Positions 32,389 through 55,888 of a DNA stretch of 64,000 nt are shown in pieces; positions within the stretch are counted from its first letter, which is position 1, and each line of letters begins with the position of its first letter. The notes below the pieces were generated by a model. It saw only the letters and a list, made by a program, of their open reading frames with translations. It made no database searches and was not told the DNA's origin. The DNA comes from Pseudoalteromonas rubra (GTDB lineage Bacteria; Pseudomonadota; Gammaproteobacteria; Enterobacterales; Alteromonadaceae): the NCBI RefSeq assembly GCF_005886805.2, contig NZ_CP045429.1, forward strand, positions 2,636,501 to 2,700,500, read 5' to 3'. The translations under genes and the position numbers were made by a program.

Positions 32389-32397
32389 GGAGGCAGC

Positions 32398-34005: not shown

Positions 34006-34014
34006 GGAGGCCCT

Positions 34015-34797
34015 ATGACAGTAACCTTAAATATCACTAAAAGTAAGGTGGCCGTGCTGGAACTCAGCCGCCCGGAAAAACACAATGCCTTCAATGCCGA
34101 AGTCATTGCTGAATTAATCAAAAGCATTGAGTATGCCAACGAGTTGGATATTCGTGCACTTATACTTAAAACCAACGGAAAACACTTCTCTGCTGGTGCC
34201 GATCTGGCCTGGATGAAGTCTATGGCTGGCAATAACTACGACGAGAATGTTGCAGACTCCATGGAGCTGGCCAAACTGATGAAGGTGCTGGCACACAGTC
34301 CACACCCCACAGTTTGCCTGGTTCAGGGCGCCGCATTCGGTGGTGCGCTGGGTTTAATCGCATGCTGTGACATCGCCGTTGCAACGCCAGATGCTAAATT
34401 CTGCCTGAGCGAAGTGAAACTTGGCCTTATCCCGGCTGTTATTAGCCCTTATGTGATCCGAGCCATTGGTGAGCGTCAGGCGCGCCGTTATTTCCTCAGT
34501 GCGGAAATCTTTACTGCAGACAAAGCGCTGAGCATGGGCCTCATCCATGAAGTTGCCGAAGATTTAGCCGGTGCTGAATCTCACTTCATTGAAACCCTGT
34601 TGAACAATGGACCCGTGGCAGTGAAAAGCGCCAAGGCATTGATCGATGAAGTCGCAGGCCACACCATCGACGACACGCTGATAGCCCACACCGCAAAGCG
34701 GATCGCAGAAATCCGGGTAAGCGAAGAAGGACAGGAAGGTCTGAGTGCCTTTTTTGAAAAACGTGCCCCCGGCTGGCAAAACGCGGCCAGCAAGTAA
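34015..34797 (+). CDS. liuC: Methylglutaconyl-CoA hydratase
   Basis: Crotonase-family protein of 260 aa placed between the carboxylase subunits, predicted to hydrate 3-methylglutaconyl-CoA to HMG-CoA. It has ELSRPEKHNAFNAEVIAELI, KTNGKHFSAGADLAWMKSMA and VQGAAFGGALGLIACCDIAVA as the oxyanion-hole segments. FCLSEVKLGLIPAVISPYV contains the catalytic Glu region. AAGGAGG lies just before the ATG, and liuB and liuD are within 10 nt on each side. Substrate assignment rests on operon context. Confidence 0.94.
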   Translation: MTVTLNITKSKVAVLELSRPEKHNAFNAEVIAELIKSIEYANELDIRALILKTNGKHFSAGADLAWMKSMAGNNYDENVADSMELAKLMKVLAHSPHPTVCLVQGAAFGGALGLIACCDIAVATPDAKFCLSEVKLGLIPAVISPYVIRAIGERQARRYFLSAEIFTADKALSMGLIHEVAEDLAGAESHFIETLLNNGPVAVKSAKALIDEVAGHTIDDTLIAHTAKRIAEIRVSEEGQEGLSAFFEKRAPGWQNAASK

Positions 34798-34807
34798 GGA
34801 GTACACT

Positions 34808-36751: not shown

Positions 36752-36752
36752 A

Positions 36753-37661
36753 ATGGCGAATTACCCTGCTCAGGTTAAAATTGTCGAGGTCGGTGCACGT
36801 GATGGTCTGCAAAATGAGTCCAGTGTATCGACCGAAGCCAAAATCACACTGGTCAATGCATTAGCAGAGGCCGGTTTGAAACACATCGAGGCTGGTGCAT
36901 TTGTGTCACCCAAATGGGTGCCACAAATGGCAGATTCCAGTGACGTGATCCAGGGGTTTGTGCGCCGAGAAGGGGTGGAGATCAGCGCTCTCACACCCAA
37001 CCTGAAAGGAGCGGAACTGGCACTTACCAATCAGGTCGACGAATTCGCGATTTTCACTGCGGCCAGTGAGGCCTTTACACAAAAAAACATCAACTGTTCG
37101 ATTGAAGAAAGTATCGAGCGCTTCCGCCCGGTCGTTGAACTTGCACAAAAAAACAACATCAAAGTCAGAGGCTATGTAAGCTGCGTGGTTGGCTGCCCGT
37201 ATCAGGGAGAGGTCGAACCAGAACAGGTGCTCGAGGTGTGTAAACAATTATTGGCATTGGGCTGCTATGAGATTAGCCTGGGCGACACCATTGGCGTGGG
37301 AACTGCCAACCAGGTCAGGCAACTGCTCACTCTGTTGCTGTCACACATCCCGGCTGAGCGTCTTGCCGTGCACTTTCATGATACCTATGGCCAGGCATTA
37401 GCCAACATCCATACGGCACTAGAAATGGGCATTGCCACCATAGATTCGGCCGTCGCCGGCTTGGGTGGTTGTCCCTATGCTAAGGGCGCGTCAGGAAATG
37501 TTGCCACTGAGGATGTTGTTTACTTGCTGCAAGGACTTGGCATTGATAGTGGAATTGATTTAGAAAGACTGGCAAAAGCAGGCTGGCAGATTTGTGAGGC
37601 GCTTGATAAAGCACCAGTAAGCAAGGTGTCACTGGCGTTGAAAAACAACTGTCAGTCATAA
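36753..37661 (+). CDS. liuE: Hydroxymethylglutaryl-CoA lyase
   Basis: Cleaves HMG-CoA to acetoacetate and acetyl-CoA, the last step of the leucine branch. The 302-aa TIM-barrel protein has [14 protein letters not shown], where the RD pair is in the active site, and [44 protein letters not shown] (metal-binding His pair) and [26 protein letters not shown] (catalytic Cys loop) complete the family pattern. The ATG at 36753 ([12 protein letters not shown]) is preceded by GAGGAGG; a start 20 codons upstream lies inside liuD. Confidence 0.97.
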
Positions 37662-37695
37662 CAACCGAGAACAACGAACAACTAGGAGTGGGCTA

Positions 37696-38394
37696 ATGGC
37701 CGGTTTCGATAAAGTAGTTTCAAGCTATGAAGCAGCAATGGAGGGCCTCAAAGACGGCGATACCATTATTGCCGGTGGCTTTGGATTATGTGGTATTCCT
37801 GAGGGCTTGATTGCTGAAATTAAACGCAAACAAACTAAAGAACTGACTGTCGTATCTAATAACTGCGGCGTAGACGACTTTGGTCTGGGCATTTTGCTAC
37901 ACGACCGTCAGATCAAAAAAATCATCGCCTCTTATGTGGGCGAAAATGCCCTGTTTGAGCAACAGCTATTAGACGGTATTATCGACGTTGAGTTGACGCC
38001 TCAGGGCACGCTGGCAGAGAAGATGCGTGCCGGTGGTGCAGGTATCCCAGGTTTTTACACCGCAACGGGTTACGGTACACCGATTGCCGAGGGCAAAGAA
38101 GTTAAAGAATTTGATGGCCGCCCTTACATCCTGGAAGAGTCCATTACCGGTGAATTTGCTATCGTGAAAGCGTGGAAAGCAGATCGCTACGGTAACCTGG
38201 TATTCCGCCACACTGCCATGAACTTTAACCCTATGGCCGCAACAGCAGGTAAAATTACCGTTGCCGAGGTGGAAGAAATCGTAGAGCCGGGCGAGCTGGC
38301 GCCGAGTGAGATCCACACACCGGGGATCTATGTTAATCGCGTGATTCAGGGTAGCTTTGAAAAACGCATCGAACGTGTCACAACCCGTAAGTAA
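37696..38394 (+). CDS. scoA: 3-oxoacid CoA-transferase subunit A
   Basis: Alpha subunit of succinyl-CoA:3-ketoacid CoA-transferase, which activates the acetoacetate released by LiuE to acetoacetyl-CoA. The 232-aa protein opens [36 protein letters not shown], with the family [10 protein letters not shown] motif. [14 protein letters not shown] and [18 protein letters not shown] are also typical. It follows liuE by 34 nt with a CTAGGAG-type ribosome site, and scoB starts 10 nt downstream. Confidence 0.96.
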
Positions 38395-38404
38395 GGAGAT
38401 CACC

Positions 38405-39067
38405 ATGGCTTTAACTCGTGAACAAATTGCAATGCGCGTGGCGCAGGAGCTTCAGGACGGATACTACGTGAATCTGGGCATTGGCATCCCTACCCTGGTT
38501 GCTAACTACGTACCTCAAGGTATCGAAGTGATGCTGCAATCAGAAAACGGTCTTTTGGGTATGGGTCCTTACCCAACAGAGGACCAGGTTGACGCAGATA
38601 TGATCAATGCGGGTAAAGAAACCGTGACAGCAGCCACAGGTGCGGCTATTTTTAATAGCGCCGAAAGCTTTGCCATGATCCGCGGTGGTCATGTAGACTT
38701 GACGGTACTGGGTGCATTTGAAGTGGATCAGAACGGCAATATTGCCTCGTGGATGATCCCGAAGAAATTAATCAAAGGCATGGGTGGGGCAATGGACTTA
38801 GTTGCAGGTGCACAGAACATCGTTGTTACCATGACTCATGCCAGCAAGCACGGCGATTCAAAGTTACTGGAGTCTTGCACTCTGCCGCTTACGGGCGTTA
38901 ACTGTGTGAAGAAGATCGTCACGGATTTAGCCGTGCTTGAAGTGAAAGACGGTGCGTTCCATTTGCTAGAGCGCGCACCGGGTGTTAGTGTAGACGAAAT
39001 TATCAGCAAAACGGCGGGTAAGCTTATTGTGAATGGCGACATTCCTGAAATGCAGTTTGCCAGCTAA
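38405..39067 (+). CDS. scoB: 3-oxoacid CoA-transferase subunit B
   Basis: Beta subunit of the CoA-transferase. The start is the ATG at 38405 (MALTREQIAMRVAQELQDG), preceded by AAGGAG; an upstream frame inside scoA is rejected. The 220-aa protein has VNLGIGIPTLVANYVP and the catalytic glutamate in QSENGLLGMGPYP. GGHVDLTVLGAFEVDQNGNIASW and KGMGGAMDLVAGAQNIVVTM also match the family. It ends the liu operon at a strong terminator, completing leucine to acetoacetyl-CoA. Confidence 0.96.
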   Translation: MALTREQIAMRVAQELQDGYYVNLGIGIPTLVANYVPQGIEVMLQSENGLLGMGPYPTEDQVDADMINAGKETVTAATGAAIFNSAESFAMIRGGHVDLTVLGAFEVDQNGNIASWMIPKKLIKGMGGAMDLVAGAQNIVVTMTHASKHGDSKLLESCTLPLTGVNCVKKIVTDLAVLEVKDGAFHLLERAPGVSVDEIISKTAGKLIVNGDIPEMQFAS

Positions 39068-39141
39068 ACACACGCGGTCTGACACGAAAACACCAAACAT
39101 GTACCGACCTCATTCCCAGTGCCAAAGGCGCTGAGTTACCC

Positions 39142-39169
39142 AAAATCCCTCGCAAGAGGGATTTTTTTT
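39142..39169 (+). terminator. Terminator of the liu-sco operon
   Basis: AAAATCCCTC at 39142-39151 and GAGGGATTTT at 39156-39165 pair perfectly around a GCAA tetraloop, followed by a T-run to 39169. Confidence 0.95.
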
Positions 39170-39467
39170 ATCTTTTTCATTCGCATTGGTGTGAATTTAT
39201 TCAGTTAAGCGCACATTCGTTTACTTTTATATTCTAACGCTTACACTAATAGACGAAGATCTTTCTGGGCAAGGTGGCCAGAGGACCTCGTTTTGGTTGG
39301 TTTATCTTAATTACATCGAAACGGCTTTTTTGATACTAAAAAGACGATCGTAATGGCAAGCACCAGGCAACCATTACCGCTGTAACTAACATAAGCCCAT
39401 CGCATGCTGTTTGCATCAAAGCCGGGTATTCCTGCCTTGCCATTCACTTCTCAACCATGAGGTAACA
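39170..39467 (+). other. Upstream region of the BCCT transporter
   Basis: About 300 bp between the liu terminator and the transporter ATG, within a 400-bp gene-free gap. It is AT-rich at 39190-39250. No ORF, known riboswitch or clear promoter pair was recognised, though the long leader could be regulatory. Confidence 0.5.
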
Positions 39468-41045
39468 ATGGCAGACAATCACGACAAGTACAGTATTGAT
39501 AATACTGACTACACAGTGGGCCAGGACAACGTACAAAAATGGGGGTTTGATGTTCATAACCCGGTTTTTGGCGTCTGTGCCGGCCTGATTTTACTTTTTC
39601 TCATTGCAATTTTAGTGAGCGATGCCGAATCAGCGAAGGCAACGCTGGACGGACTAAAGTGGAAAATTATCGGTGCGTTTGATGCTGTTTTCATGTGGTC
39701 TGGCAACTTTTTTGTCTTATTTTGTCTCGCACTGGTGCTGTCTCCTTACGGTAAAATCCGTCTTGGTGGAGATGCCGCTAAACCACAATATACCACCCTC
39801 TCCTGGCTGGCTATGCTGTTTGCCGCCGGTATGGGGATAGGATTAATGTTCTGGGGTGTGGCCGAGCCAGTAGCTTATTATACAGGCTGGTACAAAACCC
39901 CGCTCAATGTGGCCGCAAACACACCCGAAGCGGCAGAGCTTGCCATGGGCGCAACTATGTACCATTGGGGCTTACACCCCTGGGCTATCTATGCCGTTGT
40001 GGCGCTCTCATTAGCCTTCTTCGCCTATAACAAAGGTCTTCCGCTGTCTATTCGCTCTATATTCTATCCGCTGCTAGGCGACAGAGCCTGGGGCTGGCCG
40101 GGTCATGTGATAGACATTCTGGCGGTGCTGGCGACTTTGTTTGGTCTGGCAACATCGCTCGGTTTGGGCGCGCAGCAGGCAAGCGCCGGGATCCAGCACG
40201 TATTCGGGATAGAGGCCGGCCTGGGCTTGCAAATCACTGTCATCGCCGGCGTCACTTTGCTGGCTATCATTTCGGTCGTGCGGGGCATTGAAGGAGGTGT
40301 CAAAGTACTCAGTAATACCAATATGCTGCTTGCCTTTGCCTTATTGCTGTTTGTGATGCTCGCCGGGTTTGCTGTTGCACTGGGTAACATCCCGACCACT
40401 ATAGTGGCTTATGCAGAGAATATCATTCCGCTAAGTAATCCGCACGGACGTGAAGATGAAGCCTGGTATCAGGGCTGGACGGTATTTTACTGGGCCTGGT
40501 GGATCTCCTGGTCTCCGTTTGTAGGTATGTTTATTGCCCGCGTTTCTGAAGGCCGGACTATTCGTGAATTTATCATCGCCGTATTGCTAATCCCAACACT
40601 GGTGACGACATTATGGATGTCGGTATACGGTGGCATCGCTATTGACCAAGTGATGTCTGGCGTTGGCTCACTGGGTGAAAATGGCCTGACCCAGGTACCA
40701 CTGGCAATGTTTGAAATGTTTGAACAACTGCCACTGGGTGATGTCTTGTCGTTTGTCGCCATCGTACTGGTACTGGTGTTCTTTATCACCTCTTCAGATT
40801 CGGGCTCTCTGGTGATAGACAGTATTACGGCTGGCGGTAAGATTGACGCCCCAATTCCGCAACGCGTGTTCTGGGCAACAGTTGAAGGTGCCATTGCTGC
40901 TACGCTATTGTGGATCGGCGGTACAGAGGCTATAGAAGCCCTGCAGGCTGGTGCAATCTCGACCGGCTTACCTTTCACTCTGGTGTTATTGTTGATGTGC
41001 CTGAGCCTGATCCTGGGCCTTCGCACGGAGCAAACTCAGTCCTGA
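39468..41045 (+). CDS. BCCT-family betaine/choline/carnitine-type transporter
   Basis: Sodium- or proton-coupled uptake carrier for a quaternary amine or similar compatible solute. The start is placed at 39468 (MADNHDKYSIDNTD), with GAGG five bases before, rather than an upstream frame. The 525-aa protein has about 12 hydrophobic segments. The family signatures are FAAGMGIGLMFWGVAEPVAYY, MYHWGLHPWAIYAV and WTVFYWAWWISWSPFVGMFIARVSEGRTIREF, and FFITSSDSGSLVIDSITAGG follows. The C-terminal tail is short and lacks the long charged osmosensing tail of BetP. Substrate is not determinable. In several marine bacteria a transporter neighbours the DUF294/exonuclease pair, as here. Confidence 0.93.
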   Translation: MADNHDKYSIDNTDYTVGQDNVQKWGFDVHNPVFGVCAGLILLFLIAILVSDAESAKATLDGLKWKIIGAFDAVFMWSGNFFVLFCLALVLSPYGKIRLGGDAAKPQYTTLSWLAMLFAAGMGIGLMFWGVAEPVAYYTGWYKTPLNVAANTPEAAELAMGATMYHWGLHPWAIYAVVALSLAFFAYNKGLPLSIRSIFYPLLGDRAWGWPGHVIDILAVLATLFGLATSLGLGAQQASAGIQHVFGIEAGLGLQITVIAGVTLLAIISVVRGIEGGVKVLSNTNMLLAFALLLFVMLAGFAVALGNIPTTIVAYAENIIPLSNPHGREDEAWYQGWTVFYWAWWISWSPFVGMFIARVSEGRTIREFIIAVLLIPTLVTTLWMSVYGGIAIDQVMSGVGSLGENGLTQVPLAMFEMFEQLPLGDVLSFVAIVLVLVFFITSSDSGSLVIDSITAGGKIDAPIPQRVFWATVEGAIAATLLWIGGTEAIEALQAGAISTGLPFTLVLLLMCLSLILGLRTEQTQS

Positions 41046-41072
41046 TCCTATATGACACCAGCGCAACACTTC

Positions 41073-41103
41073 AAAATGGCATGTTCAGTTACATGCCATT
41101 TTT
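41073..41103. terminator. Bidirectional terminator between the BCCT and exonuclease genes
   Basis: AAAATGGCATGT at 41073-41084 and ACATGCCATTTT at 41091-41102 form a perfect 12-bp stem with a 6-nt loop. It has T's on one side and A's on the other, so it serves both convergent genes. Confidence 0.9.
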
Positions 41104-41155
41104 GTTTCTGCCGTAAGGTATGCTGACGAAGTGCCAGCAGCACTAAACTAAGCCA

Positions 41156-41863
41156 CTACATCCATAGCGTTTTGATCTCTGTCTGTAATGTATAGTGATG
41201 CTGCAATTGCGCCTGCAATAGCTCAGCGGTTGCCAGTGCATCGCTGAGCGCATGATGCGCAATATAGTAAGGTAACCCATAACGTTTACGGCTATCAGCG
41301 AGGCGGATTGAGGGGATAGACTGGCGCTTAATTTGCTGCCACCAGGTTAACCGGTTGGTTTCAATACGATGCTCCAGTGCCATAGTATCAATCAAGGGAA
41401 ATTCGATACCTTCACCCAGGCGCTGCATTAATGCCTGATTAAAGAACGGACGTTCAATGTGTCGATAATGAACCACAATCACTCTGCCTGCCAGGCTCGC
41501 CAGCAATTCTTTAAGAATAGTATCCAGATCCGGCGCTTCGCGAACCTGAGAATGGGTAATTTGATGCACCACTACAGACTCTTCATGTAGCGGCGTAGCA
41601 GGCTTTAAGATCCAATGTTTAGCGTCACGACAATAGGCCCTGCGCGCATCAAAAGGCACCAAGCCGACGCTGACTATGTCATCAGTTTCATGGTTTAACC
41701 CGGTCGTCTCGAAGTCGAGCGCGACAAAACGCGCTTCAGACACTGGTGTGTCTGGTAACTGAACACCTGCGTTATAAAACGCACGCAACCTTTCATCATT
41801 ACTTTGCCGAGCCAAATGCGCAAAACGGTTTGGCCAGGATAAAATATCGCCTTGTATCGCCAT
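41156..41863 (-). CDS. DnaQ-like 3'-5' exonuclease (DEDDh)
   Basis: A 235-aa protein with the DEDDh exonuclease pattern. VALDFETTGLNHETDDIVSVGLVPF (Exo I, Asp-x-Glu) lies near residues 47-70. VVVHYRHIERPFFNQAL (Exo II) is near 135-150, and HHALSDALATAELLQAQL (Exo III, His and Asp) near 205-222. It is related to the polymerase III epsilon subunit but is a stand-alone enzyme of unknown substrate. Its ATG overlaps the TAA of the upstream CBS/DUF294 gene by one base, indicating translational coupling and a shared role. Confidence 0.92.
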   Translation of the reverse strand: MAIQGDILSWPNRFAHLARQSNDERLRAFYNAGVQLPDTPVSEARFVALDFETTGLNHETDDIVSVGLVPFDARRAYCRDAKHWILKPATPLHEESVVVHQITHSQVREAPDLDTILKELLASLAGRVIVVHYRHIERPFFNQALMQRLGEGIEFPLIDTMALEHRIETNRLTWWQQIKRQSIPSIRLADSRKRYGLPYYIAHHALSDALATAELLQAQLQHHYTLQTEIKTLWM

Positions 41864-43758
41864 TACTTGAGTATCGCCTTGTTCTGATAACGTATTTTAA
41901 GATAGCTTTGGGCTTTATCCAGTACAGCAAAGGCTTCTTTGAGATTGCGCTGTTCAAACTCAGATAATCGTTTAGGCAAAATGTTATTGTCTGGTTGTTT
42001 TCCCTGTTCTATTTTTCTCGCCTGGTGACGAATGCGGATCGTGGCGATATACTCCAGCGCCGCCTCTAAATCTTCCACCTTACCAGGTGGTAATAGCTGA
42101 GCTTCTTTAATGTCTTCCAGTCGTTCAAACGAGTTCTGTTTGCGCGAACCGATAGCCAGAGCATGTACACGTACCAGATCAGATAGAGGTGCGGTACCAC
42201 GTCGTTTGATGTTCAGCGAGTGCTTATGTTCACCATCTTGTTCCAGCACAAAGTCTTTAAAAAAACCAAGCGGTGGCGTTCTGCGCAGCGCATTGTTTGC
42301 CATCGCGGCAAGAAAGCGAGGGGCGATTTTCGCTTTTTTAGCCACCAGCTCACTGAGTCGGCTGGCCAATTGAGTACATCCATAGACCCCATCGAGATCA
42401 AAAAATATCGAGCTGTGTAATAACGCCTCGGGCTTCGGGTTATCCACCCAGTCTTCAAACTGTGCTTGCCATTCACTAGCCCTTAACCGCCACTGCGGGT
42501 TGGTGGCCATAATGCCCCCATCGCAAAGCTTATAGCCACATTGCGCAAGGCCATCACAAACAAACTTAGCGAGCGCGGCAAAATAACCATCATGCTTATC
42601 CGGCTCAAAAGTATCATCGAGGATCAGGGCATTGTCCTGATCCGTGACAATCAACTGCTCATCACGTGCCATCGATCCGAGCGCGATAAAACAATAAGGT
42701 ACAGGCGGTGTGCCCAGCTCGTCCTCTGCCAGTTCCAGTAACCGTTGCTTTATAGTACGGCCAATCACGGACATTGCCGTTCCAACCATGTGTGAATTGG
42801 CGTCTTCATTTACCAGGCGCACAAAGACACTGGCCAGCGACTGTGCATAATGTGCCAGATCCTCAACACTTTGCTGTTCCATAATTCCTTTGACAAACAG
42901 TAAGCTACTTTGTGATTCATAACGCAATATATCCGATAGTGCTATCACGCCAATGGGACGGCGTTTATGAACCACAGGTAAATGATGCAGATTATCTCTA
43001 AGCATCATCATCATGGCCTCAAACACATAGGCATTGGAATCTACTATTGTGAGTTCACGGGTCATAATAGCGGCAACAGACTGGTTGGTATCTAAGCCCT
43101 CAGCCACCACTTTAATGCGTAAGTCTTTGTCACTCAGGATCCCCACAATTTGTCCGTCATCATCTTCCGGATCGTCACTAACAGGCTTACTGGGGTCGAA
43201 GATCAGCAGTGCTGATACTTGCTCCTCAGTCATCAGCCTCGCCGCATCACGAATTGAGCGTGATAACTCAACCGACACTAACTCTCTGAGTAATAATGTT
43301 TTTACTTTGGCGGTAGTCAGATCATTATTGTCGGCCTGCTCGGAGACAGCCTGGATCAATCCACCGCTATCGTCCGCTTCAAAAAAGTCGGCAAAGGCCT
43401 CATGCTCATCACAAAATGCCTCAAATAACCCCACAGGGATGCAATAAACCAGGGTATCTTCTAACGCCATTACCGGAAAACGAACTTTGCGGTTTGTTAA
43501 CAAGCCTCGCTGACCAAACAAACCGCCTTCAGAAATTCGGTTATATAACTCGCCATTGCGGCGGTATACCTCAACTGACCCAGCCCGCACCACATACAGG
43601 TTGGAGATGGATTCCCCGTAATGCAGAATTTCGCTGCCTGCACGGTAGTACCCTACCTCGACCTCGCTGGCAAGCTGTTGCAATGCGCGCTTGGTGAGCG
43701 CATTAAATGGCGGATGTGCAGACAAAAACTGCATGATCTCAAAGTGCTCGATTTGCAT
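41863..43758 (-). CDS. cNMP-binding, CBS-pair and DUF294 nucleotidyltransferase-like signalling protein
   Basis: A 631-aa multidomain cytoplasmic protein. A cyclic-nucleotide-binding domain (about residues 12-125) includes GSEILHYGESISNLYVVRAGSVEVYR. A CBS domain pair (about 160-285) includes SALLIFDP... and HHLPVVHKRRPIGVIALSDIL. A DUF294 nucleotidyltransferase-like domain (about 325-470) shows ALGSMARDEQLIVTDQDNALIL, a GS-x-DxD type site. A C-terminal DUF294_C domain (about 480-620) completes it. It is resembled by GlnD-type and other nucleotidyltransferases, but its reaction is unproven. It is cotranscribed with the exonuclease. Sensing of cNMP and adenine nucleotides is inferred from the domains. 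Confidence 0.92.
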   Translation of the reverse strand: MQIEHFEIMQFLSAHPPFNALTKRALQQLASEVEVGYYRAGSEILHYGESISNLYVVRAGSVEVYRRNGELYNRISEGGLFGQRGLLTNRKVRFPVMALEDTLVYCIPVGLFEAFCDEHEAFADFFEADDSGGLIQAVSEQADNNDLTTAKVKTLLLRELVSVELSRSIRDAARLMTEEQVSALLIFDPSKPVSDDPEDDDGQIVGILSDKDLRIKVVAEGLDTNQSVAAIMTRELTIVDSNAYVFEAMMMMLRDNLHHLPVVHKRRPIGVIALSDILRYESQSSLLFVKGIMEQQSVEDLAHYAQSLASVFVRLVNEDANSHMVGTAMSVIGRTIKQRLLELAEDELGTPPVPYCFIALGSMARDEQLIVTDQDNALILDDTFEPDKHDGYFAALAKFVCDGLAQCGYKLCDGGIMATNPQWRLRASEWQAQFEDWVDNPKPEALLHSSIFFDLDGVYGCTQLASRLSELVAKKAKIAPRFLAAMANNALRRTPPLGFFKDFVLEQDGEHKHSLNIKRRGTAPLSDLVRVHALAIGSRKQNSFERLEDIKEAQLLPPGKVEDLEAALEYIATIRIRHQARKIEQGKQPDNNILPKRLSEFEQRNLKEAFAVLDKAQSYLKIRYQNKAILK

Positions 43759-47021: not shown

Positions 47022-48350
47022 ATGAGTCAGTCACCCTGGCAACAAAGACAGCTGGATCAAAAAAAATATCGCCCTAATGACAACCGCTCAGCCTGGCAGA
47101 TTGATCGCTCCCGGATCATCCACGCGGCAGCATTCAGGCGCTTACAATCAAAAACACAGATTATGAGTATCGGCGTCAATGACTTTTACCGCACCCGCCT
47201 GACTCACTCACTGGAGGTTTCTCAGATAGGTACAGGGTTACTTCGCCATCTCAGAAATCAGCACCCCGAGTTTGCCTGGCTTCCCTCCTCCAGCCTGATG
47301 GAAACCATCTGCCTTGCACACGATATTGGCCACCCACCTTTTGGTCACGGCGGAGAAATCGCGCTGAATTATCTATTGCGCGATCATGGCGGCTTTGAAG
47401 GCAATGCACAAACTCTACGGATTGTGACTAAACTAGAGCCCTACTCCAAAGGGTATGGTATGAATCTGACCCGCCGAACTTTACTCGGGTTTATAAAATA
47501 TCCGGCTGTGATCGATGAGCTATGTCTTAGCATGCCACAGCCCGATCCCAGTCAACGCTTTATCTATACCCAACAATGGCTACCAGCCAAAGGCATTTAT
47601 CAGTGTGACAAAGACGTACTGGATTGGATCCTCTTACCCTTCAATGAAGACGATCGAACTTTGCTGCAAAGCCATGTACCAGTCAATGAATTTAAAGCCA
47701 AGACTCGCTTCAAATCGCTCGATAGCGCCATCATGGAATACGCCGATGATTTCGCCTATGCGGTGCATGATCTGGAAGATGCAATTGCCACCGAGACCCT
47801 GAGCGAGCGAGAGTGGCAACGATACGCCCTGCCTGAGTTGCAAAAAATCAATTCCCCATGGCTGGATGAGCATCTCGACAGTATCAGTGAACGACTGTTC
47901 TCGCACGATGAATCGCTGCGCAAAGATGTGATTGGCGAGCTGGTGAATTTGTTTATCGTCAACTGCGAACTGACTATTCAGGATACTGAATTCAGCGATC
48001 CGCTGCTGCGTCATACCGTGAAGCTCTCAGACGAATTTGAAGCTATTCTGGGAGTACTCAAACACTTTGTGTTTTCTCGCCTTATACGCGACCCCAAAAT
48101 GCAACAAATTGAATTCAGCGGCCAAAACATGTTGATTGATTTATTTGGTGCATTCCAGAGCGATCCGTTGCGATTACTGCCCTATACAACCCAGGCGCAT
48201 TTCACTCAAGCCTCCGATGAAAGAGCGCAAATGCGTGTACTGGCCGACTATCTTTCCGGCATGACAGATGAGTATGCAAGACGTTGTTATCAGCGTTTGT
48301 TCGGTAACACTGGTATGCAATCCCCAATAAAAAGCGGCCCATCTATGTGA
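47022..48350 (+). CDS. Deoxyguanosinetriphosphate triphosphohydrolase-like protein (HD domain)
   Basis: HD-domain enzyme expected to hydrolyse dNTPs to nucleoside and triphosphate. The 442-aa protein has the dGTPase N-terminus SAWQIDRSRIIHAAAFRRLQSKTQI and RTRLTHSLEVSQIGTGLLRHL (metal His). CLAHDIGHPPFGHGGEIALNYL provides the HD motif, then FEGNAQTLRIVTKLE. MEYADDFAYAVHDLEDAI holds the late metal Asp. Length and motifs fit the dGTPase-like subfamily more than E. coli Dgt (about 505 aa). Its last codons form part of the terminator hairpin of the convergent kinase gene. Confidence 0.92.
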   Translation: MSQSPWQQRQLDQKKYRPNDNRSAWQIDRSRIIHAAAFRRLQSKTQIMSIGVNDFYRTRLTHSLEVSQIGTGLLRHLRNQHPEFAWLPSSSLMETICLAHDIGHPPFGHGGEIALNYLLRDHGGFEGNAQTLRIVTKLEPYSKGYGMNLTRRTLLGFIKYPAVIDELCLSMPQPDPSQRFIYTQQWLPAKGIYQCDKDVLDWILLPFNEDDRTLLQSHVPVNEFKAKTRFKSLDSAIMEYADDFAYAVHDLEDAIATETLSEREWQRYALPELQKINSPWLDEHLDSISERLFSHDESLRKDVIGELVNLFIVNCELTIQDTEFSDPLLRHTVKLSDEFEAILGVLKHFVFSRLIRDPKMQQIEFSGQNMLIDLFGAFQSDPLRLLPYTTQAHFTQASDERAQMRVLADYLSGMTDEYARRCYQRLFGNTGMQSPIKSGPSM

Positions 48351-48357
48351 GCCGCTT
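48327..48357 (-). terminator. Terminator of the kinase cluster, embedded in the dGTPase 3' end
   Basis: AAGCGGC at 48332-48338 and GCCGCTT at 48351-48357 form a 7-bp stem with a 12-nt loop. On the minus strand it is followed by TTTTTATT, which is the correct polarity for the kinase gene ending at 48396. The dGTPase stop codon falls in the loop. Confidence 0.75.
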
Positions 48358-48395
48358 CGCAAAGAAAAAACCAAACTGTTGAAAAATTCAAACGT

Positions 48396-51300
48396 CTACT
48401 CTGGATAAAATATCCGCTGATATAGCGCGGGATCTTTTATACCCAAACCAGAAATATATTCATTTATCTCAATAGTCCGCTTATTACTCAGTTTCTGTAC
48501 CGCACAGCGTTTCATCATTAACTGATGTAGCTCCATTTGCGCTTTCGCAAAATGGTTTTCTGCACTGGCCAGCGCATCAAGAGACGCTTTTTCCGCTCCT
48601 TTGATCCGTGCAATCCCGGCACGTAAACAGTATCCATATCCTCTTGCTGATTGTGCTATCTCTTTCAGCAGGCCCTTTGCATCCTGTTCTGCAACTTTAA
48701 GCATTTTGGATGCCATCGACGGGTCGTGTTGTGCGCGAGCAAGTGCCACCCTGCCATGCAAAAACAAGTAGTCCGTCCTAACAGAAATCGAGCCAAATAA
48801 GCCGGCACGCTTTGCCTGACGAAGATCTTCACGCAATTTCACCCAAGTATCTTCGATGTTCCCCGTCATCAGACCAATTTGAATTAAGGCTTTCGATGCA
48901 ACCCAATGCTGATAGGTAAACTCGGCAAGCGGCCATGACGCTATCGCGTCATTGATAATGCCCCTGCCTTGCTCCATCTCACCATTAGCGGCATGATAAA
49001 CACCCATAAACATATTCAGCTCAACCAAAGAGAAATGGTCTCCCCGAGATTTTGCATCCAGGATCCATTGTGGCACCAACTCACCGATCTTGTGTACACG
49101 ACCCATTAACCAAAAAATATGTGTCGCCGTTGTTCGTGCTATCACAGCGTTGTTCTGCGCATCGAAAATTTTGGTAGAAAACTGCTCCTCGGCATGCATT
49201 ATCATTTCGATACTTGCCTGGTATTCACTCTGGATTGAAAGAGACACTCCCTCTAGGAGAGTTCGGTGCATTTTATACTCGGGTTCTGTGAGGCTCTCTC
49301 CCAACTGACTGGCCTGCTCGAAGATCCGCGAGCTAATCTTCTTATGTCTTACCGTACCGCAATAAGACAGGGCAAATGCGTAGATATTTAACCCTTGAAC
49401 CGTCCGTTTCAAATCCTTTTTATTAATGGCCAAACGCAAGCTCAGTAATGAAAAGTACAATCCCCTGATAGGATCCCAGTTGCTTAAAGAGTTCGCCACA
49501 GAAAAGACCAGCTCTATTTTCGGATCTGAGACTTCAGCGCTTAATTTCTCCTTTTTAAGCCACCTGCGCCTAACTTCAAGTACCACGATACTCCAGATTA
49601 TCCGAAGCATCGCTGTTTTTGTCGAACCCGGATAAGGTAATCGCCATTTTTTTAATAGCGGTTTGAAGAGATCTTCACCCTTTTCAATGTGACCACCATA
49701 CATAAACTGACTGGCGGCCATGCCATTTAATCGGGCCCGTTCTGAGTCGCAGAGACCGTCTGTTTTTGCCAGTTCAGCAAAAAGTTCTGCAGCCTGAACC
49801 CCATAGCCGCCCCTGGATAAAGCGATGGCTCTTCGCTCAGTTAACCCATACGCTTCTGCCTGCCTGCTATCTGGCAACCAGGAAATCACCTGATGACAGA
49901 TGTCTGCCTCCCGACCAAAAGCCAACGCCAGTTCAGCTTCGTCGGCAGCATGTATCATGCAATCAATAGCGCGTTGTGTTTGGCCAGACTGGTAAAACAG
50001 TTGTCCCAAAAACGCATTATCCGATTTACAATCTTCAGCTAATGCCGCAGCCAATTTACCTGCTCTGACCCTCAAAAGCGCACTACACTCGATCGACAAT
50101 ATTGATTCTCGAATTTGATCGTGGAAGCACTGTACATGGCCTCCAGCTTGCACGACTAAAAGTCGCTGAGCGCGCAAACAGGTAAAGGTAAAATCATCAA
50201 TATGGATATCACCTACAATGGAGAGGATCGTATCTGCCTTTACAGGTTGGCCCGCAATGGCAACGAAACTTAGGATTTCTCTCGACTCGGGAGACAACTC
50301 ATTGAGTCGCAGCTGTATGATCGCATGGCCATCTATCTCATCCATGTCAGATTGCAGGCCAAAATGAAGTAACTGCTCCATTAAAAAAGGGACACCTCTA
50401 CTGATTCGCACAATATCATGCGCACTGTCAGACTTAGCAGCCTGACTATCCTCAAGTAAAGCCTCCAGCATTTCAGTACTTTGGATTGGTGTTAGTGGAT
50501 TTACCGTGATGCACTCGAATGTGACAGGGCAGTCTGGTGCGTGCTGAAACCGTTCGAGCACAGCAGCAAATCGATTCTCTTCTGAAACTTCGGTACGCTT
50601 ACTCAGAATAATAAACGGACACTTTTCAGGTAAATACTCTAAAAAGCTGACCAGCAATTGTGCACTATCTTCATCACCCCATTGAATATCATCCAGGAAC
50701 AAAATGACTTGCTGCTTATTCACCAACAAGGACAAGCTATTTGCCAGTGCTTTCATTGCCAGCGCACGACAATGCATCGCATCCATATTGGGATCGCACT
50801 TTCCATGCGAAACAAATCCACGCAGCACAGGAAATAAAATCGCCAAATACTGAAAACCATCGACAATATATCTGCACCGTATCTGAGGAGGGACTGCACT
50901 CAGGTATTGCGCAAAATCATCAATCAACATGTCCAACGCTTTGAATGGCACTGTTTCTCGCTCATGACATCGCCCTCGCAATACCACAACGTTGTCTAAT
51001 GAATTTAGAAACTGCTCTACCAGGCTCGTTTTTCCTATACCTGGAGATCCCTCCACGCATATTAGCTGGTGCTGCCCTCCGGTGTGTGTACAAAACGCCT
51101 CATTCAGCATCTCCAGGTCTTTTTCACGGCCTACAAAAACTCTGGTCTCATCGGATACATCCGTCGTTGCTAAAAAGGCATCATTGGCATCAAACGCCGC
51201 CAGTACCTCTTTTCCTGTCGGTCGGTCGTGCGGATCGGGTGATAAAGCTCTGGCGAGGATAGCAATCAACGCCTTATGCAGGTGTTGATGCAGGATCGTA

Positions 51301-52085
51301 GAAACCTGCTTCTCAAACATTCCTTTGTCATCTGGTAATATAACCAGCTCTTTGGCGCTCCGCCCTGTCACCAGTTCAAGTATCACCACCGCAAAGCTAT
51401 ACCAGTCACTTGCCGCTGTCTGTACTTGCTCAGATAAACACTCAGGTGCCATGTACTTTGGCGTCCCCAACTGTTGCAGCGGTGTGTGGCCCCGTTGCGC
51501 GGTTTTCAACTGGGAAACACCGAAATCAAGCAGTTTCAGCTCACCACCTGAGGTGAGAATAATGTTGTTTGGCTTAATATCTAAGTGCAGTACACCCCCA
51601 CCATGCAAGGCACATATGGCTCTGGCAAGTTGATGGGCAAGACTCAACACATCGAGCCTGAGTGGCGCAATATAGTCCTGTCTCGCAGGTGAACTGGGTA
51701 TTGGTGAGTCAGTCGCAGACAAAGTACGCGTGGCCACTATGGTGTCGAGCATAGTATCGCTGTGACTTTGCGCGACAAAATGGCTGAGCAAGGAGCCTCT
51801 GATAAGCTCCATAACGATATAACACGCCCCTTCTATAAAGGTGAGGCCAAACAGACTCACTAAGTTTGGATGTGCTATCTGCGCGACTTGTCGATACTCC
51901 AGCTTGAACCGATAAAGCGACACAGGCTCAGTGCCCTGGATGGTTTTCAAGGCAACGAATCGATTGTTTGCCTCATCCCAGGCTTCATATACCACCCCCA
52001 TCCCGCCGCGGCCTAATATGCCTCGAATGACGTAATCGCCAATACGGGATGGGTAGTTTACTGTTTGTTTGGAAAACACTGACAA
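48396..52085 (-). CDS. Ser/Thr protein kinase fused to AAA ATPase and long helical repeat region
   Basis: A 1229-aa cytoplasmic signalling protein. The N-terminal Hanks-type kinase (about residues 15-295) has the Gly loop GRGGMG (25-30), Lys47, catalytic HLDIKPNN (Asp169), DFG (187-189) and APE (213-215). About 40 extra residues (105-145) are inserted after the hinge, and HLD replaces HRD, so it is a non-RD kinase. An AAA_16-type ATPase (about 317-560) has Walker A GSPGIGKTS (346-354) and Walker B ILFLDDIQWGD. The remaining about 650 residues look like TPR-type alpha-helical repeats without a C-terminal DNA-binding domain. This resembles PknK/MalT-like STAND kinases, but no substrate is known. 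The start is TTG at 52085, 2 nt after the amine-oxidase stop; a GTG two codons on is possible. It ends the cluster. Confidence 0.9.
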   Translation of the reverse strand: MSVFSKQTVNYPSRIGDYVIRGILGRGGMGVVYEAWDEANNRFVALKTIQGTEPVSLYRFKLEYRQVAQIAHPNLVSLFGLTFIEGACYIVMELIRGSLLSHFVAQSHSDTMLDTIVATRTLSATDSPIPSSPARQDYIAPLRLDVLSLAHQLARAICALHGGGVLHLDIKPNNIILTSGGELKLLDFGVSQLKTAQRGHTPLQQLGTPKYMAPECLSEQVQTAASDWYSFAVVILELVTGRSAKELVILPDDKGMFEKQVSTILHQHLHKALIAILARALSPDPHDRPTGKEVLAAFDANDAFLATTDVSDETRVFVGREKDLEMLNEAFCTHTGGQHQLICVEGSPGIGKTSLVEQFLNSLDNVVVLRGRCHERETVPFKALDMLIDDFAQYLSAVPPQIRCRYIVDGFQYLAILFPVLRGFVSHGKCDPNMDAMHCRALAMKALANSLSLLVNKQQVILFLDDIQWGDEDSAQLLVSFLEYLPEKCPFIILSKRTEVSEENRFAAVLERFQHAPDCPVTFECITVNPLTPIQSTEMLEALLEDSQAAKSDSAHDIVRISRGVPFLMEQLLHFGLQSDMDEIDGHAIIQLRLNELSPESREILSFVAIAGQPVKADTILSIVGDIHIDDFTFTCLRAQRLLVVQAGGHVQCFHDQIRESILSIECSALLRVRAGKLAAALAEDCKSDNAFLGQLFYQSGQTQRAIDCMIHAADEAELALAFGREADICHQVISWLPDSRQAEAYGLTERRAIALSRGGYGVQAAELFAELAKTDGLCDSERARLNGMAASQFMYGGHIEKGEDLFKPLLKKWRLPYPGSTKTAMLRIIWSIVVLEVRRRWLKKEKLSAEVSDPKIELVFSVANSLSNWDPIRGLYFSLLSLRLAINKKDLKRTVQGLNIYAFALSYCGTVRHKKISSRIFEQASQLGESLTEPEYKMHRTLLEGVSLSIQSEYQASIEMIMHAEEQFSTKIFDAQNNAVIARTTATHIFWLMGRVHKIGELVPQWILDAKSRGDHFSLVELNMFMGVYHAANGEMEQGRGIINDAIASWPLAEFTYQHWVASKALIQIGLMTGNIEDTWVKLREDLRQAKRAGLFGSISVRTDYLFLHGRVALARAQHDPSMASKMLKVAEQDAKGLLKEIAQSARGYGYCLRAGIARIKGAEKASLDALASAENHFAKAQMELHQLMMKRCAVQKLSNKRTIEINEYISGLGIKDPALYQRIFYPE

Positions 52086-52087
52086 GG

Positions 52088-54304
52088 TTACGACTCGCGG
52101 TTTTGTCCAAATAAACGCTTCAGGAAATCAACCTGGCGCGGATCGTCGCTGGTGAATCCATCCAGAATAGCCTGATACGTCTGCGGCGATACGCGAGCCA
52201 CTTCAGCCAGCACATCAACAGCTATCTCATCATTGCTGTTAAACAACTGTGCTGCCCGTAACTTCAGCTGGGTGCCAATGCCGCCCTTGAGCTCACATTG
52301 CCTGGTTTCATCACCGAGTATGGCTGATATCAAACTGTCAATCTGGCTGTCGGAAATGACATGCAAAGCAGTCCCCAACTCTAAGAACGCCTCAATACCT
52401 CGGATAAATACGTAAGCGAGTGTTTTCACTTCATTCCAGCTTTTGCTGTAAGAAGACATAGGATCAGGCTGTGGTACTTCAAACCCGGCGCCCTGGATCC
52501 GCTGCTGTGCCGCATATTGGCCTGCATACAAGCCACCATTCATATAACCCAGGTCGAGTCGATTATCTGAGTACTGTGAAATGGGTACTATCCCAGCTTT
52601 TTCAGGCTGGCTGGACGCAAAAGCGAGAGTCGTATTCGGACTCTGATTATCTGCCTTTTCAGACTTCCCTTGCGAGTCTTTATCAACGTCTTTAGGGTTT
52701 ATAAACGCCATAGCATTCGGCGTTTCAGGGTGCAGGTTACGTGCCACCTCAGAGGAGGTAAAATAGATAAGGTCTCGCCATGGCGTATTTGCAAAAGCCA
52801 TCGCCGACTTGCCATCTTGCACAGGCTCAGTCAGGACGCCAGGCGCGAATACCGTATTTGGTCCGCCTCCTATAAATGCGCCTTTTTCAAAACCACTTTT
52901 GTCTGTTTGTTTGGCCCACAGATTAGCCGTGATGGCAATGGGGTCCATTGCGGGTTCATAATCATATTCACCGGTGAACAGATAACTAATGTGTTTAGTC
53001 AAAAAGTGCTTTAACGCCTCATCCGGGTCACTGCCAGATTTAGCGATTGACGCTTCCAGCTCAGTAATTTGATCGCCAATGGTAAAGGTCATTAGACAAG
53101 GTCTTGGCTGACCATTCGCATCACAGGCTGTATTGTCCATGGTCCACAAAACCGGATATGACGCACCACCTGAGTAGCCCTGCCACCCGGTACCATCTAT
53201 GTCATTCCACCAACTGGTCTCATAGAATACTTGTGCCTTCAAAGTTCTGCCCATCTTTTGATTCATGAGTACTTTGTAGGACTCGTCTAAATCTGCTGGC
53301 CACTGAATTTTGTTTGCTGTATGAGGTGATACAGCCACAATAAGCTTTTTCGCGCGATGGACGACTCCATCAGACAGGGTCAAACAAACCGGAAATTCAG
53401 CCTGCTCATCCACCGAAACAGATTCAATCACCTGCTCATAGTGAATGCTATCCTTGAAATCTTTGCTCATAAATTCCAGGACTTTTCCGAATCCACATCG
53501 CAACCAGTATTGCTGGGGGCCGTTTTTCGCATCGTTAACTTCATTGAAAAATCCGCCGTTACACGCACAATACCAGAAGAAATATAACGCTGATATTTCG
53601 CTTGGATTAACTGATAACAGGGCCTGAGCCGCGATGGTTATGGAATCAAGCGCCGTTGGTGTCATATAACCACGGCGTGGTTTTTCATTCAGCCATTGCT
53701 CGAGTGTAATGGAGTCTAATTGTTTAGCAGTATATAACCCATTGAAGTCTGACGCCCAGGGCTGGTCCACGTTGATACATGATTCAATATACAGGATATC
53801 AAGTGACACCAGGCCTATCGCAGCAACACTGCGTTTGCCGATACCGCTGGGTAACCCGGTAATACAATATGGCGTCTGGAACTTATTGAACGGAAACCGC
53901 TTTGGCTCGTTGTTCTCATCTCTGAGAATTAACACTTGCTCTGGAAAATCAAGTCTCTGTGCAAAGTTGTCTACAATATAGGGAGGTAACGTATCCTCAT
54001 TGTACTCTGTGTCCGGTGTATCCGGATGTACATAATCAGGGTAGTGTGTTTTCAGCCAGGTATAAAACGGTTCCCCTTTAACCACAGACCATAAAGGCTC
54101 CTGCGACTCACCGATATATTGAGAGCCGTGTTCATATTCCACGCCGGGAGTATCAAGGTGCTGCGTGATTTTGAAACTGAAGTTTCGACCGCCGAGCCGA
54201 TTACTTGCCTCGAGAATCGCAAAATCTTGCTGGTTTTTCTGTAGCTCGGCTGCCGCCGCTAAGCCGGTAAATCCTGCACCGATAATAATGGTATCTTTGT
54301 TCAT
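52088..54304 (-). CDS. FAD-dependent amine-oxidase-like protein with insertion and C-terminal extension
   Basis: A 738-aa flavoprotein of the monoamine/L-amino acid oxidase superfamily. FAD motif IIIGAGFTGLAAAAEL lies at residues 6-21, then LEASNRLGGRNFSF (31-44). The C-terminal flavin motif is split. LIYFTSSEVAR (512-522) occupies the place of the usual FAGE segment, and GYMNGGLYAGQYAAQQ (586-601) the place of the closing GxxxGxxxxG segment. About 60 polar residues (525-583) lie between them. A further 135-residue C-terminal region, absent from simple oxidases, has HxS and acidic helices. The expected acidic residue of FAGE is displaced. No signal peptide was seen. GGGAG precedes the ATG. 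The kinase gene follows after 2 nt. Substrate is unknown; H2O2 release is possible but unproven. Confidence 0.82.
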   Translation of the reverse strand: MNKDTIIIGAGFTGLAAAAELQKNQQDFAILEASNRLGGRNFSFKITQHLDTPGVEYEHGSQYIGESQEPLWSVVKGEPFYTWLKTHYPDYVHPDTPDTEYNEDTLPPYIVDNFAQRLDFPEQVLILRDENNEPKRFPFNKFQTPYCITGLPSGIGKRSVAAIGLVSLDILYIESCINVDQPWASDFNGLYTAKQLDSITLEQWLNEKPRRGYMTPTALDSITIAAQALLSVNPSEISALYFFWYCACNGGFFNEVNDAKNGPQQYWLRCGFGKVLEFMSKDFKDSIHYEQVIESVSVDEQAEFPVCLTLSDGVVHRAKKLIVAVSPHTANKIQWPADLDESYKVLMNQKMGRTLKAQVFYETSWWNDIDGTGWQGYSGGASYPVLWTMDNTACDANGQPRPCLMTFTIGDQITELEASIAKSGSDPDEALKHFLTKHISYLFTGEYDYEPAMDPIAITANLWAKQTDKSGFEKGAFIGGGPNTVFAPGVLTEPVQDGKSAMAFANTPWRDLIYFTSSEVARNLHPETPNAMAFINPKDVDKDSQGKSEKADNQSPNTTLAFASSQPEKAGIVPISQYSDNRLDLGYMNGGLYAGQYAAQQRIQGAGFEVPQPDPMSSYSKSWNEVKTLAYVFIRGIEAFLELGTALHVISDSQIDSLISAILGDETRQCELKGGIGTQLKLRAAQLFNSNDEIAVDVLAEVARVSPQTYQAILDGFTSDDPRQVDFLKRLFGQNRES

Positions 54305-54641
54305 GTACGTCTCCCTCTCTTGAAATTGACTGCCAGTGAAACAGACAGCGACTAGTGAGATTTAGGTTAATATTCGCCTTATAAGCGATAGTATAACAAC
54401 CTTAACAGTGAACAAAATATCTTATAAAGCAAAGGCTTGAGCAACACCAAATGTATTGAATGATTTTCATCATTATTCTGGTTTAGTCTATATATTAGTA
54501 GAAACGCAATAATTGGATGAGTTTGAACATTAAAAATATTCAAGTTTATTTAGCGGTGTGTTGAAGGATCATTAAATAGAAACTAACTTCAGGAAGGAGT
54601 ACGGGCCCAGGACAGGCCTCGTACTGTACGACATATGGCAG
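54305..54641. other. 337-bp gap inside the oxidase-kinase cluster
   Basis: AT-rich non-coding gap between the uncharacterised 356-aa gene and the oxidase gene. A hairpin at 54598-54625 (AGTACG.GGCC with one bulge) sits about 17 nt after the upstream stop but has no T-run. TTGAACATT-AAA-AATATTCAA at 54523-54543 is an imperfect 21-bp palindrome (8 of 9 half-site bases match). A separate promoter for the oxidase-kinase pair may lie here. Confidence 0.5.
54523..54543. promoter_or_regulatory. 21-bp palindrome upstream of the amine-oxidase gene
   Basis: TTGAACATT and AATATTCAA flank AAA; eight of nine half-site positions match. It lies about 220 bp before the oxidase start, in AT-rich DNA. It could be an operator, and no protein is identified for it. 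Confidence 0.35.
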
Positions 54642-55712
54642 TTAATCTGACAGACCAGACACAGGCGTGTTGCCCACCACCATCTCTGTCACGGGCATGC
54701 TCTGGCGCAGTGCCACAGTATTCGCCGCGGTATTACCCAAGAACACGGTTTGCGCCCCTTTCGTAAAACTATCGTTGTGGATGCACTGAGGACGAATAGC
54801 GAGCGCACTCCCATCGTTTGGTACCTCAAACACAGTGAAGTGGTATTGCTCATTGGTGACGGTGCGATAATAGCCATCTTCGTGGCTGCAATTGAGCCTG
54901 CGACCGAGCAATATTCTGGAAACTGTCGGTTCTTTAAAGGCCGGGTCGATGCCTGTCGCCGGAAGCCAGATATGGGGGAAAGGGTGATGCTCGACAAACA
55001 AGCCTCCACCTTTAGTTGGGCTAAACTCATACTCAGTCACATACTCAGGTAGCTTCTGATCGTACTGAATGCCCCACAAATCCTGCGTGAAGCCTAAGTC
55101 AAACTGCTCGCCCGGCTGAAGTAACGTTCCACCATAGTAAGCGAGCGTCTCAAGGTAATTGCATTGCTCTTGTTCAGTTGAGCCAAATCGCAACAATGGA
55201 AATGTAAGCGATACCGGCTCGCCGGCACATTCAGGGTTGAGTATAAGCTGGCCTGTACTACCAAACACGTTAGAGGCGCCGTCCAGGCCAGCGATCCCCG
55301 CACCGTCCGTCGCAGCAGTCCAAAAACCACTTACCGCCAACGCATTGTCGGCCCCTGGCGGCTTACCAGTGCGCACACCGTGAAGCTGGTTAAGACGCGT
55401 GATGAGATCCCCCTCTGGGTTAAGTGGTGCCCTGTCGCTTTGAATCACTTGGTTCGCTGCATTTGGATCAAGGTGAACAATTGTGCCTGTCCGAATTGGG
55501 CCAAACAATCCGGTGGTAGTTTGCAATAGGTGTGTGCCTACTTTACGGTCAAGCACTGCCCCGTTTAAAAACTCAAAGTTATTATCCAAATCAGCATCGG
55601 ACACACCTTGAGTAACATATTGCCAGCGCGGCTCTTTCATCTGCTGAGCCCGATACTCAGCCAGCGTTTCCCCTCCAAACCCCATGACCCTTTTAATTGT
55701 AACATGCGACAT
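54642..55712 (-). CDS. Uncharacterised cytoplasmic protein, first gene of the oxidase-kinase cluster
   Basis: A 356-aa protein I do not recognise. The start is the ATG at 55712 (MSHVTIKRVMGFGG), with AAGGAG seven bases upstream; an in-frame start 21 codons earlier lacks this site. There is no signal peptide or transmembrane segment. Notable features are the His cluster EHHPFPHIWLP (His242, His243, His247), a later YHFTVFEVP (His291) and CIHNDSF (His312). Several Gly-rich turns and Cys172/Cys184/Cys275/Cys310 are also visible. The His/Glu arrangement could bind metal, and beta-rich character would suit a cupin-like or jelly-roll fold, but that is a guess. It is upstream of and same-strand as the amine-oxidase and kinase genes, separated by 337 bp. 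Confidence 0.7.
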   Translation of the reverse strand: MSHVTIKRVMGFGGETLAEYRAQQMKEPRWQYVTQGVSDADLDNNFEFLNGAVLDRKVGTHLLQTTTGLFGPIRTGTIVHLDPNAANQVIQSDRAPLNPEGDLITRLNQLHGVRTGKPPGADNALAVSGFWTAATDGAGIAGLDGASNVFGSTGQLILNPECAGEPVSLTFPLLRFGSTEQEQCNYLETLAYYGGTLLQPGEQFDLGFTQDLWGIQYDQKLPEYVTEYEFSPTKGGGLFVEHHPFPHIWLPATGIDPAFKEPTVSRILLGRRLNCSHEDGYYRTVTNEQYHFTVFEVPNDGSALAIRPQCIHNDSFTKGAQTVFLGNTAANTVALRQSMPVTEMVVGNTPVSGLSD

Positions 55713-55888
55713 GTTTGTGCTCCTTAACGCGTAACTTGCTTTGCTCTGTGGTTGTAGGTGCCAAATAGCACCCAATCAGAGTAGAGTCGAAAATTGACTT
55801 TTTTGCCATTACGACCCATTACGTGGAAGTGCTTTATGGCCGGGAGATTCTTTGCTAATGTACCTATTTTAATCAGGTTGCTTAGACA
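55713..55888. other. Divergent region between the 356-aa gene and the small membrane protein
   Basis: A 176-bp spacer. GGTGC at 55757-55761 and GCACC at 55768-55772 form a 5-bp stem with a 6-nt loop in the presumed leader of the minus-strand gene. No confident -10/-35 pair was assigned. Confidence 0.45.

Follow-up and report, generated by a model that had tools for sequence, protein, structure and literature searches.

A STAND-type Ser/Thr kinase gene and a flavin oxidase gene make up a probable two-gene unit beside a bystander gene in Pseudoalteromonas rubra

The described proteins closest to the two considered here are the PknK/MalT-type STAND kinases, in which an N-terminal Hanks kinase is followed by an AAA_16-type nucleoside triphosphatase (NTPase) and a long C-terminal part, and the flavin monoamine oxidases (the monoamine oxidases MAO A/B and the putrescine and cyclohexylamine oxidases; PF01593). 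Marine bacteria also have H2O2-producing oxidases of the LodA/LodB type. Excerpts of PMC4381067 describe PknK of Mycobacterium tuberculosis as a STAND kinase and give ADP-to-ATP conversion and multimeric assembly as features of STAND proteins. Here we describe a locus in a 64,000-nucleotide stretch of Pseudoalteromonas rubra (the window; contig NZ_CP045429.1, positions 2,636,501 to 2,700,500; coordinates below count from its first letter), part of a 5.94-Mb genome in two contigs, where genes for a STAND kinase and a flavin oxidase lie side by side. We call the 1229-aa kinase KIN, the 738-aa oxidase OX, and the 356-aa protein encoded upstream of both P356. An earlier note, made from the sequence alone, had treated the three genes as one system. 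We find that OX and KIN very probably form a two-gene unit and that P356 is a bystander, lying beside OX-KIN by position only, so that the grouping as a trio was wrong.

An open reading frame (ORF) check agreed with the three same-strand genes and the two gaps that had been claimed. All three are on the minus strand. P356 starts at an ATG at 55712 (54642-55712), and its frame stays open upstream to a TTG at 55775 (54642-55775, 377 aa). OX (52088-54304, ATG start) follows after 337 nt (54305-54641), and KIN (48396-52085, TTG start) begins 2 nt beyond the OX stop codon (52086-52087). In genome G113, which belongs to another species, the gaps are 336 and 2 nt and the three genes, all intact, keep their order; protein identities are 90% for KIN, 95% for OX and 97% for P356 (98% from the P356 ATG).

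Among 108 genomes of the genus, P356 occurs in 18 (including a remnant limited to residues 218-356), OX in 2 and KIN in 3. The same two genomes carry OX and a close KIN, side by side and in one shared order; the remaining KIN, in genome G123, is a relative with 25% identity that lies ~968 kb from that genome's P356 on the same contig. Sixteen of the 18 P356-bearing genomes, G123 included, are without OX and a close KIN. A set of 31 P356 loci from one scan of genome contigs (23 holding ~10 kb on both sides, 8 ending at contig ends) was searched by tblastn (E 0.01, no bit filter), and neither KIN nor OX lay near P356 in any of them (0/31). OX was also missing from all 13 genomes behind the Pseudoalteromonas P356 loci, in a run that included no positive control (in another run this query did match the genome it came from), and KIN was missing from the three genomes tested behind loci L007, L008 and L019, in a run that matched G113 and G123. 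The co-occurrence on which the earlier note made its trio depend holds for OX and KIN and fails for P356, so that its interpretation is supported in part, and the trio as one system was rejected on the counts of both loci and genus genomes. The P356 result is a caution against reading a neighbor as a partner: one that stays next to the pair in two species may nonetheless be a bystander.

For OX and KIN, we rely on co-presence, order, spacing and selection. Between the window and G113, the ratio of nonsynonymous to synonymous substitution rates (dN/dS) is 0.10 for KIN and 0.14 for OX (0.014 to 0.033 for five neighbors), and both genes are under purifying selection. The two genes are only 2 nt apart and are present or absent together, as fits a dedicated pair, and their closest outside relatives are similarly distant (P0123 at 56% identity for OX, P0185 at 51% for KIN). 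In the gap between P356 and OX, a GC hairpin lies just 3' of P356, its stem unchanged and its loop different in G113 (-19.3 kcal/mol, z -1.5, for this stretch in the window; -19.1 kcal/mol, z -2.9, in G113), and an extended -10 box, read by eye, lies upstream of OX (TGTTATACT in the window, TGTTATAAT in G113). These two elements suggest an OX-KIN transcript separate from that of P356.

The OX family is very rare in class, order and phylum samples: no full-length relative beyond its own genome was found among 369 class (E 1e-40), 394 order (E 1e-60) and 398 phylum genomes (E 1e-60), which yielded one partial match (a 467-aa frame in G271), and KIN matched only its own genome among 303 genomes of the class. 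Each of these four runs scored no more than 2 or 3 candidates in a genome, and their negatives are soft. Searches of open-access literature, in part limited to the top-ranked listings, found no kinase-amine oxidase pair, and in a term search of the main text of two conflict-system surveys (PMC7159879 and PMC8195603) "oxidase" and "flavin" occurred 0 times. OX-KIN is a rare pair built from known parts.

KIN had been read as a kinase-AAA-helical-repeat fusion, and the first two parts of that reading hold. Residues 19-296 match Pkinase (PF00069; 2.9e-38, 132.2 bits against a cut-off of 31.7), and residues 317-493 match the STAND NTPase family AAA_16 (PF13191; 1e-20, 75.3 bits against a cut-off of 32.6). 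The helical repeat was not confirmed: ~700 residues follow without a Pfam domain, no repeat family is among the 20 Pfam families of 10 aligned proteins (E 0.01), and the C terminus has no PDB sequence match. We aligned KIN with 9 relatives chosen from 17 matches, one of which is a gap at the glycine loop. KIN itself has the glycine loop, K47, HLD at 167-169 (D169), N174, DFG at 187-189 and P214-E215, with the HRD arginine replaced by Leu, as well as a Walker A motif (GSPGIGKTS, G346 to K352), a Walker B motif (FLDD, D465-D466) and an FHDQIRE stretch that takes a similar form in the relatives. Judged by these motifs, KIN belongs with the STAND kinases of the PknK/MalT style and has intact catalytic motifs; unlike the described members, it has HLD for HRD, no recognized C-terminal repeat and a partner oxidase gene. 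A 99% identical P. rubra cluster (P0183) bears the NCBI name PknK, and the annotated start of another relative (P0184) is a GTG two codons later. KIN also resembles the TOMM kinase/cyclase fusion TIGR03903 in joining a kinase to an AAA-like region (3.4e-29) but reaches 101.4 bits against a cut-off of 705.75, and no TOMM genes were recognized alongside.

Nucleotide identity of KIN to its G113 counterpart is 90 to 97% in the kinase part and 77 to 90% in the rest. The synonymous substitution rate (dS) is 0.58 to 0.73 for the STAND and C-terminal part (48396-51170) and 0.24 for the kinase part, with mostly 0.19 to 0.30, and in one case 0.52, for the flanking genes. In this comparison of two alleles, the pattern suggests an exchange of the STAND and C-terminal part between alleles. 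Next to the KIN relative of G123 (L043:7584-12875) is a gene whose 167-aa product matches an NHLP-type RiPP family below threshold (NF038399, 21.9 of 40 bits).

The amine-oxidase-like flavoprotein of the earlier note was borne out by a match of OX to Amino_oxidase (PF01593; 1.6e-21, 77.6 bits against a cut-off of 19.8). OX carries the flavin adenine dinucleotide (FAD) motif GAGFTG..EA..RLGGR, and its predicted model (mean pLDDT 75.5) has the monoamine oxidase fold, matching human MAO A with E 7.8e-26 and TMt 0.86. In an alignment of OX with 18 relatives chosen from 62 matches, Lys356 and Tyr587 are invariant (19/19), the latter in a C-terminal GYMxG motif, as are P482 and N483 in a GGGPN segment. 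Lys356 stands where we place the catalytic Lys of MAO, and the stretch that we equate with the MAO segment bearing the flavin-linked Cys and a cage Tyr reads GGPN in OX. Hence OX, which appears to be without the covalent-FAD Cys and the two-Tyr cage of MAO A/B proper, is probably an oxidase that holds its FAD non-covalently and has a modified cage. It shares the FAD Rossmann motif, Lys356, Tyr587 and the fold with the flavin monoamine oxidases and, in addition to the missing Cys and the GGPN segment, differs from them in having an insert at residues 526-582 and a C-terminal helical extension. The insert bears Ser and Thr residues, is modeled with pLDDT below 50 and comes just before Tyr587 in sequence. 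What OX has in common with LodA/LodB is being an oxidase in a marine bacterium, with H2O2 as a possible product; Pfam finds neither LodA_N nor LodA_C in it (the same library finds both in locus L025, described below), and no LodB model is among the best 25 of 41 NCBIfam families.

Among its relatives, P0121 of P. rubra is 99% identical to OX, and the 16 aligned members beyond P0122 and P0123 are 28 to 36% identical. Distant relatives at 28 to 35% identity come from Sandaracinaceae (P0133), Polyangiaceae (P0136) and Myxococcales (P0167), all of which we take to belong to Myxococcota. A PADLOC match to OX (C3a186) was set aside as not meaningful, as it covers residues 5-45, the Rossmann motif only.

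Our preferred reading, which we hold tentatively, is that KIN regulates OX, encoded just upstream, within the two-gene unit. Its observed base is the gene order, the presence of the pair in two species, the intact catalytic motifs, purifying selection and the independence of P356. Co-transcription of OX and KIN would start from a putative promoter in front of OX. KIN, which is presumably cytosolic, would read a signal through its C-terminal half, upon which the AAA_16 NTPase would swap ADP for ATP and multimerize and the N-terminal kinase would become active. The likeliest target would be OX, perhaps at the flexible loop 526-582 before Tyr587, and its phosphorylation might turn the oxidation of an amine or amino acid up or down, with H2O2, an aldehyde and ammonia as products. 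Gating of an oxidase by a STAND kinase is plausible, and it is the part that we infer. If KIN does control OX, the locus would offer a simple example in which a PknK-type STAND kinase has a dedicated enzyme target encoded alongside it, and STAND signaling would be linked to amine oxidation.

Several observations weigh against this reading. The pair is present in only two genomes, the hairpin in the window is only modestly stable relative to shuffles (z -1.5), and a consensus promoter scan of 54305-54641, which requires a -35 hexamer, lists no promoter. OX is without one cage Tyr, and amine oxidation itself is thus only predicted; P. rubra P0122 lacks some 30 residues of the loop, which counts against a fixed phospho-switch. 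Finally, the 25% identical KIN relative of G123 has no OX alongside, which means that this type of kinase does not need OX. This last point, together with the retention in OX of the MAO catalytic Lys, also favors a possible but doubtful alternative, in which OX does ordinary catabolic or biosynthetic work as a flavin oxidase and KIN shares its operon while acting on other proteins, such as regulators, in the manner of PknK; the 2-nt gap and the shared distribution of the two genes speak instead for a dedicated pair. The title of PMC9045387 names Rho, PrrA and MtrA as targets of M. tuberculosis PknK.

An unlikely alternative is that the pair is a defense or antagonism module, in which phage, predation or contact would lead KIN to turn OX on and H2O2 or loss of polyamines would harm the cell or a rival. 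The pair is patchy (2/108 genus genomes), KIN has diverged further in its STAND part than in its kinase part, and the present-or-absent segment that carries the pair lies 45 nt from a gene for an anti-phage-type dGTPase (47022-48350, plus strand), which is convergent with KIN, the distance being measured from the KIN stop. This protein exceeds the cut-offs of NCBIfam for anti-phage deoxyguanosine triphosphatase (593 bits against 383 and 556 against 400), is listed by PADLOC as dGTPase and is the only neighbor of the pair in a named defense family. According to excerpts of PMC12265719, inhibition of phage had been demonstrated in earlier work for a dGTPase of Shewanella putrefaciens, a presumed relative. 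However, the dGTPase occurs with and without the OX-KIN pair and may be housekeeping; it is 91% identical in L007, where the pair is missing, and therefore does not depend on it, although its presence here gives the site some interest for a defense role. The other neighbors checked encode HtpX, a Bax-like protein (below cut-off), an ABC transporter, a TAP-like hydrolase and topoisomerase I, and no integrase was recognized, by eye or with NCBIfam, among the neighbors examined.

The matches of KIN to defense proteins also speak against such a module. Compared with the defense kinases MAD6 and PD-T4-6, KIN has no match beyond the kinase domain and falls far below the cut-off (NCBIfam MAD6, 138.1 of 460 bits), and in the best 25 of 35 PADLOC families the best stretches lie within residues 11-313. 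No relative of OX or P356 was found in viral contigs, where two loci match KIN through kinase-domain residues only. Plasmids hold no close OX (4 records at 21 to 25% identity over about half of the protein), and none of their 604 KIN records covers 80% of the query. The phage response that had been raised for the locus is left with the convergent dGTPase on its side, which also occurs without the pair. Clover CloA-CloB, as given in excerpts of PMC12265719, likewise has a signaling gene adjoining an enzyme gene; the Clover enzymes are a dGTPase and a nucleotidyltransferase, whereas a defense role for OX-KIN is hypothetical. Less likely still is a self-contained switch, in which an NTP-driven assembly of the STAND kinase would phosphorylate the flexible loop near the active site of OX and turn on H2O2-producing amine oxidation in rapid response to a phage, predator or competitor, beside the anti-phage-type dGTPase.

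Close relatives show the site without the pair. In L007 (Pseudoalteromonas sp. XMcav2-N), L008 and L019 (both labeled P. rubra), the ATPase and permease genes of an ABC transporter are followed by P356 and the dGTPase gene, with no gene between the last two; L059 (genome G139) is arranged alike, again without KIN or OX. L007, L008 and the window share a small ORF on the opposite strand between permease and P356. In the window, ~6.3 kb containing OX and KIN (48357-54641) stands between P356 and the dGTPase gene, and all four of these loci are without it. By BLAST, the extra segment runs from the P356 stop at 54642 to 48356-48358, with similarity stopping 31 to 38 bases before the P356 stop, and in L007, L008 and L019 there are 43 to 45 bp from that stop to the point where similarity resumes. 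A hairpin adjoins the segment boundary on the dGTPase side. OX shares 86% identity with P. rubra protein P0122, and the P356 proteins of the empty-site strains are 84 to 85% identical to that of the window; given this similar divergence, some strains may have lost an older pair, or the pair may have been exchanged from strain to strain. Gain or loss at one site, together with the rarity of the OX family in the samples above, would also suit neutral cargo from homologous exchange with two unlinked functions, a reading to which we give little credence in view of the purifying selection on both genes. In L059 (6666-7490), the dGTPase match is in one piece over only 275/442 residues.

P356 was correctly described as having no recognized family, with no match at E 0.1 in Pfam, NCBIfam or PADLOC. 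A protein search returned 125 relatives, with Pseudoalteromonas, Tenacibaculum, Pedobacter and Kordiimonas among their names, and the family also occurs in Bacteroidota. The His cluster that had been pointed out is real: E241, H242, H243, H247 and H312 are invariant in 21/21 aligned members chosen from the 125, a set whose best Pfam match is only E 0.068. The predicted fold appears cupin-like; it has no Foldseek match at E<=0.001 and matches cupins at middling Z by VIA-align, and its closest known counterparts would be AllA ureidoglycolate lyase and other cupins. In L019 (10022-10429; P. rubra S2471), P356 is cut to a 135-aa ORF made up of its first residues and then about the last two-fifths. 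One of the 31 loci, from Tenacibaculum (L025:6697-11074), has LodA and LodB-like genes (the latter at 249 of 400 bits) followed 69 nt downstream by a P356 relative. It is highly improbable that all three genes are one system with P356 as a metal-dependent partner of the oxidase, an idea to which the trio intact in two species, this oxidase pair in Tenacibaculum and a conceivable read-through from P356 (the hairpin following P356 in L007 lies past KIN in the window) lend something, since it is largely refuted by the co-occurrence counts (16/18 genomes, 0/31 loci) and is further opposed by P356 neighbors that differ between loci and by the hairpin and -10 box in the P356-OX gap.

Elsewhere in the window, 19000-22371 encodes a 1123-aa leucine-rich-repeat protein that is internalin-like in NCBIfam, far below cut-off, and 41863-43758 encodes a protein with cNMP-binding, CBS and DUF294 nucleotidyltransferase domains. 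A block of mostly plus-strand genes at 31213-41045, which includes a carboxyltransferase gene (32398-34005), coincides with the window's only stretch of positive GC skew (32001-42000, in 2-kb steps).

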